Below the pieces are notes generated by a model, which made no database searches, was not told where the DNA came from, and saw only the letters and a program-made list of their open reading frames with translations. A stretch of 64,000 bases of DNA from Pelagibacterales bacterium SAG-MED22 (GTDB lineage: Bacteria; Pseudomonadota; Alphaproteobacteria; Pelagibacterales; Pelagibacteraceae). The position numbers and the translations under genes are program-made. The number at the start of each line of letters is the position of its first letter. Within the stretch, counting starts at the first letter, position 1. The stretch covers positions 186,001 through 250,000 of the forward strand of contig JACWDT010000001.1 in assembly GCA_014653985.1 (NCBI GenBank). Direction: 5' to 3'. This document shows positions 4,135 through 6,429 of this stretch, piece by piece.

Positions 4135-4704
4135 ATGGATAATCAAAATTTAATAATATTCAAATTTGAGAATTTTTATGAAATATTTAAAGAACTAGAA
4201 CAAAATACTACTTTTAAAAGTTTCGAAGTATCAGAATATAAAATCCTTCAAGAAAAGAAAAAAATACTAAAAAATTATATAATCATCACTCAAAAAGAAA
4301 TTAAAGATTGCTCAAGACAAGTTATATTGGATCAACTACCAATAAAATTTTTTAATTTAATCGAAAAATTAAATATTGAATTTCTTAAACTTCAATATAA
4401 TGAAAAATCAGAATTTAAAGTTGGAAAATACAAAATAAACTTAAATTCTAGGGAGCTAATAGGTGAAAACAAATCGTTAAAATTAACCGAAAAAGAAACA
4501 AAAATTATAATCTATCTTTCAAAATTAAATAAACCTGTAAGTATAAACGAACTTCAATCAGAAGTTTGGGACTATAACTCAAAACTTGAAACTCATACTG
4601 TAGAAACTCATGTTTATAGATTAAGAGAAAAAATTTCTAAAAATTTTAATAACAAAAATTTCATAGAGAGTAAAAAAAGTGGGTATAAAATTAATTTAGA
4701 CTAA
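4135..4704 (+). CDS. Orphan OmpR-type winged-helix protein with degenerate N-terminal domain
   Basis: The C-terminal half of this 189-residue protein (about residues 95-189) is a clear Trans_reg_C (OmpR/PhoB) winged helix: KLTEKETKIIIYLSKL, INELQSEVW, THTVETHVYRLREKI and a final wing ESKKSGYKINLD. The N-terminal 90 residues have receiver-like size and strand/helix rhythm, but I cannot find the paired acidic residues, the phospho-acceptor Asp in its usual context or the KP-type lysine. It is therefore probably a phosphorylation-independent or differently sensed regulator. No histidine kinase is adjacent. It lies 13 bases from the divergent L,D-transpeptidase gene, making an envelope-related role possible but unproven. 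Confidence 0.8.
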   Translation: MDNQNLIIFKFENFYEIFKELEQNTTFKSFEVSEYKILQEKKKILKNYIIITQKEIKDCSRQVILDQLPIKFFNLIEKLNIEFLKLQYNEKSEFKVGKYKINLNSRELIGENKSLKLTEKETKIIIYLSKLNKPVSINELQSEVWDYNSKLETHTVETHVYRLREKISKNFNNKNFIESKKSGYKINLD

Positions 4705-4714
4705 TAAAATTAAT

Positions 4715-5329
4715 TTACTTAAAATTGTTAATATTTACATTGAAACTAATAACAATTCGATCTTCCTTAGAATTATTTTCTGATACTTTGTGAGGTAGGT
4801 ATGCAGGAAAAATTAGTAATTCTCCCTCCTCGATTTTTAATCCTGCAGTTTTAAGATTAAATTCTGTTTTTTTCTCCTCTGCTGGATAAGAATGCGTTGC
4901 AACATCAAGTGGGTTATCTATAATAAATCTACCCCCATCCTCTGGTGCTTTTACATAATAAGCTGCGCTAAGGTATGAATTAGGGTGCGTGTGTATTACA
5001 TTAAAATCATTTGGTTTGTTAATAATCGCCCACATTTCGGTGACTATTGTTCTAGAAGGAATTAACTTCCATCCATAATTTTTTATAGTGTCAAATACAT
5101 ACTTAGTTGTTTCTAATAAAAATTTATGTTGTATTGAATTTTTATCTTTTAAATCAAATGGTTTTGAATGCCAACCACCTTTATTTGATCTTATGATTCC
5201 CTCTTTATCTTCTTCATTCAATTTATAAATATATTCTGATAAGCCTTTATTAAAGTAAGCAAAGTTATCAACTTTGTATTTAAATATTGGTTGAGGAAAA
5301 TATTTTAATATTTCTCTGTTAGATATCAT
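4715..5329 (-). CDS. Putative 2OG-Fe(II) oxygenase (TIGR02466-like)
   Basis: This 204-residue cytosolic protein resembles the TIGR02466 family of putative 2-oxoglutarate/iron oxygenases. It has FPQPIFKYKV at the N-terminus, a conserved NKGGWHS, then HTHPNSYLSAAYYVKAP (about residues 116-132), which provides the first metal His. LLIFPAYLPHKVSEN and RIVISFNV near the end supply the second His and the 2OG-binding Arg. The substrate is unknown; relatives hydroxylate small molecules or proteins. It is convergent with the orphan regulator, with ten bases between them. Such genes are common in marine alphaproteobacteria and cyanophages, so lateral exchange is conceivable, but the composition here matches the neighbours. 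Confidence 0.82.
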   Translation of the reverse strand: MISNREILKYFPQPIFKYKVDNFAYFNKGLSEYIYKLNEEDKEGIIRSNKGGWHSKPFDLKDKNSIQHKFLLETTKYVFDTIKNYGWKLIPSRTIVTEMWAIINKPNDFNVIHTHPNSYLSAAYYVKAPEDGGRFIIDNPLDVATHSYPAEEKKTEFNLKTAGLKIEEGELLIFPAYLPHKVSENNSKEDRIVISFNVNINNFK

Positions 5330-5386: not shown

Positions 5387-5506
5387 ATGAAGAAATTAAA
5401 TAAAAAAAATCCAATAATTAAAGACTTATATTCAAAAAAATATAAGCCTAAAATAGTTAAACCTAAAAAAGGCAAAGGAAGCTTTAAAAGGATAAAAAAG
5501 TCCTAA
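5387..5506 (+). CDS. ArfA-like small basic protein (putative ribosome-rescue factor)
   Basis: A 39-codon ORF encodes MKKLNKKNPIIKDLYSK, then a short linker, then KPKKGKGSFKRIKKS. This is the layout of ArfA: an N-terminal IKD segment and a KKGKGSY-like basic tail that in E. coli ArfA lies in the empty mRNA channel of stalled ribosomes and recruits RF2. The E. coli protein has 72 codons and is normally produced from truncated mRNA; this one ends right after the basic tail, corresponding to the functional core. No clear Shine-Dalgarno is visible. Its stop overlaps the convergent kinase gene by four bases. The function is inferred from the motif only; a random lysine-rich ORF is the alternative. 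Confidence 0.62.
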   Translation: MKKLNKKNPIIKDLYSKKYKPKIVKPKKGKGSFKRIKKS

Positions 5507-6429
5507 ATTCTTGCTCCAATTTTTTGGATAATTTTTGATGACAACTCTGTACCTTTTTTTAAACTTGCAAGTGGTGACAGATTGTTAATAACACCATGCA
5601 AATAACCAGCAGCAAATAAGTCTCCAGCACCAGTTAGGTCCGCTATATTAAGATCTTTTTTTGCAAGACATTCTACAACTTCTCCATTATTTATAGCAAT
5701 TGCTCCTTTTTCGCCGCGTGTAATAACAATACTTTTGTTTAAATTTTTACTAAATTCTATTGCATCATCAAATGACTTACTGTCAATTAGTGATAATATT
5801 TCTTGCTCGTTAGCAAAAATAATATCAAGTTTATTTTTGACTAGTTCTAAAAAATGAGGTTTGTGTCTCTCAACACAAAATAGATCGGAGAGAGACATAG
5901 CAACTTTGTTTGAGTTTTTAATCGCTTTATCAAAAGCTTTTTTAGGTTCTCCCTCGTCCCATAAATAACCTTCCAAAAAAGTTATCTCTGCTTTATTGGT
6001 TAAACCCGCATCAACATCCTGATCACTTATTTTTCCTGCGGTACCAAGGAATGTACACATTGTTCTTTCGGAGTCTGGAGTTATCAAAATTAAACAGGTT
6101 CCTGTTGGCATAGGCTCAATTTTTTTTGAGTATAAAAAATTAACATTTTCTTTTTTTAATCCGTCTTCATATTTTTGACCTAAATTGTCATCGTTGATCT
6201 TTCCAATAAATCCAACTTTATTACCCAGTTGTGACAAACCTACGATAGAATTTGCAACCGATCCTCCAGAGATTGTGTCTTCAATTGAAAGACCTGAGAG
6301 TAAATTTTTAAATTCAACCTCATCTATTAACTTCATAGTGCTTTTGGTCAGAGAATTTATATTTAAAAACGCTTCATCCACTTTGCAAAGCACATCAACA
6401 ATTGCATTACCAATTCCTAAAATTTTCAT
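5503..6429 (-). CDS. PfkB-family carbohydrate kinase, probably adenosine kinase
   Basis: The 308-residue protein has the ribokinase/PfkB fold signatures. These are a GIGNAIVDVL start, the glycine-rich GGSVANSIVGLSQLG substrate segment (about 55-70), a second strand GFIGKINDD, and DLTGAGDLFAAGYLHG (about 263-278) with the catalytic Asp and anion hole. Among PfkB subfamilies the N-terminal GNAIVDVL and GGSVANS segments are most like bacterial adenosine/sugar kinases, so AMP formation from adenosine is a reasonable guess; another nucleoside or sugar cannot be excluded. It is the last gene of a minus-strand run (dnaK-dnaJ-dapB-nth-kinase), two bases after nth. Confidence 0.85.
   Translation of the reverse strand: MKILGIGNAIVDVLCKVDEAFLNINSLTKSTMKLIDEVEFKNLLSGLSIEDTISGGSVANSIVGLSQLGNKVGFIGKINDDNLGQKYEDGLKKENVNFLYSKKIEPMPTGTCLILITPDSERTMCTFLGTAGKISDQDVDAGLTNKAEITFLEGYLWDEGEPKKAFDKAIKNSNKVAMSLSDLFCVERHKPHFLELVKNKLDIIFANEQEILSLIDSKSFDDAIEFSKNLNKSIVITRGEKGAIAINNGEVVECLAKKDLNIADLTGAGDLFAAGYLHGVINNLSPLASLKKGTELSSKIIQKIGARI

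Follow-up and report, generated by a model that had tools for sequence, protein, structure and literature searches.

The window, by which we mean the whole 64,000-nucleotide stretch analysed, comes from the genome of Pelagibacterales bacterium SAG-MED22 (contig JACWDT010000001.1, positions 186,001 to 250,000). Within it, a short open reading frame that starts with ATG at 5387 and ends with TAA at 5504-5506 encodes a 39-residue product, MKKLNKKNPIIKDLYSKKYKPKIVKPKKGKGSFKRIKKS, put forward in a preliminary description as a ribosome-rescue factor of the ArfA type overlooked by reason of its size. The frame and its surroundings comprise the following features:

4135-4704, forward strand: gene for an OmpR-type DNA-binding regulator (Trans_reg_C; PF00486, E = 1.6e-13)
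4715-5329, reverse strand: gene for a 2OG-Fe(II) oxygenase (PF13759, E = 1.1e-23), between the regulator gene and arfA
5387-5506, forward strand: arfA-like gene, 39 amino acids plus a TAA stop codon
5408-5443, forward strand: N-terminal segment N8-Y19 (NPIIKDLYSKKY) of the arfA-like product, aligned through solved ArfA chains with N14-F25 of Escherichia coli ArfA, the part facing RF2 and the decoding centre
5465-5491, forward strand: KKGKGSFKR, residues 27-35 of the same product, equivalent to the mRNA-channel tail K33-R41 of E. coli ArfA and largely invariant in 29 SAR11 homologs
5503-6429, reverse strand: convergent gene for a PfkB-type sugar kinase (open reading frame), whose stop overlaps that of arfA

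The frame, whose boundaries had been given correctly, is a real gene under strong purifying selection, far above chance. Among its homologs at 80 named SAR11 loci the median dN/dS is 0.095, all 604 pairs with a usable dS fall below 1, and variation at the third codon position is three times that at positions 1 or 2, which rules out a spurious open reading frame; frame-shifted dN/dS values constitute no independent control and are given no weight. Clear homologs occur in most of the genus (61 genomes searched), and the conservation in relatives extends through the order, the homolog profile matching 151 of 198 Pelagibacterales genomes (118 of the 149 high-quality ones); the weakest of these 151 matches, in a sister family and in one genus, are to the B-type proteins described below.

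The gene order around arfA is conserved as well. All 80 loci have the regulator gene upstream; in most relatives it directly adjoins and overlaps arfA, whose start lies 20 nt inside the end of the regulator gene at 47 of the 80 loci, an overlap that suggests translational coupling. The convergent kinase, named from its own sequence rather than via a family search, is found downstream at 75 of the 80 loci, with one gene between in nine of these, so that the frame recurs beside the kinase gene in other SAR11 genomes. The oxygenase gene stands between regulator and arfA in the window and at six of the 80 named loci (among these six, L056 probably represents the window's own genome). Its position around arfA varies among relatives, which have it ahead of arfA, behind it or beyond the kinase gene (L059, L079, L104, L111, L127), as if it had been inserted there repeatedly. 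In the regulator at 4135-4704, PF00486 covers residues 113-185 only and the first 110 residues have no Pfam match.

Judged by sequence comparison, the 39-residue protein is a homolog of ArfA. Its sole Pfam match is to the ArfA family (PF03889; E = 1.5e-5), at 24.8 bits and thus 0.7 bits below the curated cut-off of 25.5; the same family is matched by all 29 aligned homologs (best E = 2.6e-8), some of them above the cut-off, as in a relative from another Pelagibacteraceae genus (32.8 bits). A search of the PDB with the SAR11 homolog profile returned solved ArfA chains only (E about 4e-6), and profile-profile comparison of the SAR11 homologs with gamma ArfA, represented by 14 ArfA sequences from other proteobacterial genomes, gave E = 2e-9. 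The HMM of this reference set scored the 29 real sequences at 18.6-33.9 bits and 8,700 composition-matched shuffles at 13.4 bits or less, ruling out an artefact of lysine-rich composition. Searches of NCBIfam and PHROGs with the protein gave no match, and the frame has no match to PF00472, the GGQ domain of class I release factors that marks ArfB.

ArfA is ordered only when on the ribosome. The preliminary description's likening of the frame to the functional core of ArfA is borne out at the level of single residues: the protein aligns with E. coli ArfA (YhdL; PF03889) free of gaps over the core N...L....F..(R/K).....KKGKGS(Y/F).R, and the eight residues invariant in the 14-sequence gamma set (N14, F25, K34, G35, K36, G37, S38 and R41) are all retained in SAR11, F25 as Tyr and K36 occasionally as Arg. 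Within SAR11 itself, N8, K12, L14, K27, K28, G29, G31, S32 and R35 are identical in 29 of 29 homologs and Y19 nearly so. Cryo-EM structures show the basic tail of ArfA inside the mRNA tunnel, with L19, L24 and F25 placed against Trp319 of RF2 (PMC5378476). This hydrophobic RF2-binding patch of the E. coli protein corresponds to D13, K18 and Y19 in the window protein, L14 of which aligns with E. coli L20, and the position of A18 is occupied by an invariant Lys in SAR11; according to James et al. (2016), as summarised in PMC5378476, exchange of A18 for Thr in E. coli ArfA leaves RF2 compact. The replacement of L19, L24 and A18, together with the channel-binding tail being the best-conserved part of the protein, would suit a descendant of ArfA that continues to bind the mRNA channel yet no longer activates RF2 and has taken on a new task, for example keeping hold of idle ribosomes during starvation. 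However, the conservation of L14 (L20), Y19 (F25) and the equivalent of N14 indicates that the RF2-facing half is also constrained, and alpha- and gammaproteobacterial relatives with an LRTPxF pattern also possess KGKGS-type tails (L047, L177); we consider such a change of function unlikely.

In E. coli, RNase III cleaves the arfA transcript, and active truncated ArfA results only when trans-translation falls short (PMC4245945); the active form, ArfA-deltaC17, has 55 residues (PMC4245945). Aligned to E. coli ArfA, the SAR11 frame ends at about residue 45. The regulatory hydrophobic tail is thus missing, as had been pointed out, but the protein does not stop exactly where that tail would begin, its end lying some ten residues before that of ArfA-deltaC17. 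When the last 45 nt, the stop codon and the following 40 nt (88 nt) were folded, a significant hairpin (z < -2) was found at none of the 80 SAR11 loci (mean z +0.3). The window locus itself gave z = -0.5. For a longer SAR11 stretch, beginning at the core and again including 40 nt beyond the stop, z was +0.4 and one locus of 80 fell below -2. By comparison, classical arfA loci, folded over 170 nt, display strong structure after the KGKGS codons in 11 of 11 cases (z -2.6 to -7.6). Folding of the window and the 80 SAR11 loci thus revealed no hidden hairpin for tmRNA control and no terminator. Since the tail is missing, the stop codon is normal and the hairpin seen in 11 classical loci is absent from 80 SAR11 loci, control of SAR11 arfA by tmRNA and RNase III in the manner of E. 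coli appears unlikely, in line with the earlier proposal that this gene stands outside the tmRNA loop known from enterobacteria.

The genome carries the remaining components of such a rescue system. A permuted tmRNA of the alphaproteobacterial kind (225.9 bits, tag ANESYALAA) and SmpB (193 bits) are both present. RF2 carries the switch-loop Trp (IGWGHQIRSY) together with SPF and HTSF motifs and RF1 is without that Trp, which agrees with the RF2 contacts described in PMC5378476. ArfB, sought together with tmRNA, was not found: a PF00472 search of the genome gives RF1 and RF2 only, and ArfB was likewise not found in 41 genomes of the order or in the 20 arfA-lacking genomes considered below, which rules it out as the actual backup; a 151-residue PF00472 open frame in one genome (G007) is probably a release factor cut by the contig end.

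Taken as a whole, these observations are in all likelihood best explained by a minimal ArfA that is presumably made constitutively and would back up tmRNA-SmpB. As we infer from its homology, the protein would act in rescue by binding the ribosome and recruiting RF2. As the gene ends in a normal stop codon and lacks both the hairpin and the hydrophobic tail, the active protein would be made directly and not solely upon failure of tmRNA. In most SAR11 genomes arfA is probably translated together with the upstream OmpR-type regulator gene; in the window genome the oxygenase gene splits the two. Because no ArfB was found, arfA would be the sole known backup to tmRNA-SmpB in this genome. Against this explanation we count the replacement of L19, L24 and A18, the score of the window protein 0.7 bits under the Pfam cut-off, and the nine of 20 arfA-lacking genomes that have no strong candidate for a replacement.

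SAR11 ArfA resembles E. coli ArfA in sharing its genome with tmRNA, SmpB and an RF2 bearing the switch-loop Trp. It differs in its length (39 residues versus 72), in lacking both the hydrophobic tail and a hairpin of the RNase III type while possessing a normal stop codon, in the three replaced residues (L19, L24 and A18), and in its occurrence in Alphaproteobacteria, where it adjoins genes for an OmpR-type regulator and a PfkB-type kinase. From its description in the literature, Bacillus subtilis BrfA is likewise a short RF2-recruiting rescue factor, reported as expressed from an mRNA that RNase III cleavage has left without a stop codon (PMC11633108). Published surveys restrict ArfA to part of the beta- and gamma-proteobacteria plus a few Bacillus, and a review confines it to subsets of the beta- and gamma-proteobacteria (PMC8012679). 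The survey of 15,259 genomes by Callan et al. (2024) recorded arfA in none of 2,376 Alphaproteobacteria (PMC11633108); it used nucleotide profiles (PMC11633108), which would probably miss a short AT-rich gene such as SAR11 arfA. Among the papers searched, a single one deals with both ArfA and SAR11, and it concerns the phage. ArfA itself and the naming of a phage homolog (gp30, below) were already known; what is new is its occurrence, as a short form lacking the hairpin, in a class for which the survey lists none. Here most of one of the ocean's most abundant bacterial orders carries ArfA, and apparently lacks the switch by which tmRNA reserves it for emergencies in E. coli. This raises the question as to whether a streamlined cell without ArfB runs ArfA constitutively beside trans-translation.

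Relatives of arfA are also found in at least 274 IMG/VR viral contigs, where their surroundings are clearly those of phages: they neighbour a T4-like clamp loader (L199), SbcC/SbcD-like subunits (L210) or GroES (L195). The cultured pelagiphages HTVC027P (gp30) and HTVC034P (gp63), both with HTCC1062 as recorded host, encode homologs; HTVC027P gp30 has already been named ArfA (PMC12753301), and gp10 of Citromicrobium phage RXM is annotated as ArfA. A tblastn search of phages with the SAR11 consensus gave no match, probably owing to low-complexity masking, whereas phage-type queries gave matches. HTVC027P gp30 and RXM gp10 have the same general N-terminal segment as the SAR11 protein and a KKG(K/R)GS or LKGRGS tail; they differ in being phage-borne, and gp30 has an extra N-terminal segment and adjoins the gene for the terminase small subunit. 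In several phages, ArfA-like segments are fused to segments of other small phage proteins (SKNIRKLKKEGKPQ... at L232:4881-5288, L260 and L263; MPGKWDGKSR... at L210, L204 and L208). With so many viral contigs carrying a relative and both pelagiphages encoding one, the SAR11 gene might be phage-derived and retained for a purpose in phage-host relations, for instance helping or hindering phage translation; but its chromosomal position is the same throughout the genus, in a pattern of ancestral presence and not within a prophage, and a phage origin would leave the likely rescue mechanism unchanged, so that we regard this account as very improbable. Least credible of all, and largely refuted, is the view that the protein is a general basic peptide for binding RNA or DNA, its likeness to ArfA stemming from its richness in lysine (about 40% of residues), a view favoured by the lack of matches in NCBIfam and PHROGs; no shuffle of the same composition nears the real scores, conservation falls on residues specific to ArfA (G, S, R and N), and the PDB gives ArfA only.

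If HTCC1062 lacks arfA, HTVC027P and HTVC034P would bring a function that their host is without. Beyond SAR11 and its phages, PF03889 is matched in nine of 386 alphaproteobacterial genomes scanned, six of the nine lying outside SAR11 (part of them inspected), and ArfA-like proteins with KG(K/R)GSY occur in a few other alphaproteobacterial families (L044, L045, L047), for example NPIARALRTPTFRQRKIRPKKGRGSYSR.

A minimal ArfA acting as backup would also accommodate the natural absences of the gene. Among 20 high-quality genomes of the genus without an arfA match, the locus could be retrieved in 17, and in all 17 the genes on either side are preserved, with hardly any gap between those for the regulator and the kinase, which rules out missed detection. 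A tree built from the kinase and endonuclease III proteins implies that arfA was present ancestrally and was lost four times; such clean losses are consistent with a dispensable backup. A short protein of a second kind, termed B-type, is encoded by a clear gene in 11 of the 20 arfA-lacking Pelagibacter genomes versus 0 of 20 arfA-carrying ones, the latter count meaning that none has a B-type gene in addition to arfA. As the 11 genomes form one clade, this represents a single event and not statistical proof; the other nine have no strong replacement candidate, and a backup is thus not required everywhere. The natural losses and the phage copies carried into hosts offer ready comparisons.

B-type proteins show the pattern NPxAKxL...KxYxRK, with a KxYNRK tail in the arfA-lacking clade. 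These proteins, which are related to DUF7230 (PF23876), have the N-terminal segment NPxAKxLRTPKF(K/R) in common with SAR11 ArfA (hhalign against the SAR11 profile, E = 1.6e-10); they differ in being without the KGKGS motif and are similar to classical ArfA only weakly (hhalign E = 0.0017, probability 16%). It is conceivable, if on balance doubtful, that streamlined marine bacteria and their phages possess a larger set of short rescue factors, of which ArfA forms just one branch. In that case the B-type proteins might perform the same function through a channel tail of another type, and one of them might have replaced arfA in a SAR11 clade. Examples from that arfA-lacking clade are L344 (G246:C1:28662-28796, minus strand), for instance MSKKRKKVKKKNPMAKLLSSPMLRNKIVKNKKKIYNRKKFKLGNE, and L343, L345-L350, L352, L359 and L360. 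Related proteins of 35-44 residues without KGKGS are found in the SAR11 sister family and in one Pelagibacteraceae genus (L266-L273, L342, L351, L353-L358), and at the sister-family loci examined the gene follows one for an SDR-type dehydrogenase. T4-like Acinetobacter phages, for example Ac42 (L330:1492-1611), encode a 39-residue B-type protein, MKGKRNPIAKAVRTPAFKMQVVKDKTQYSRKEKFKKSYE, near rIIA, where it is annotated as hypothetical.
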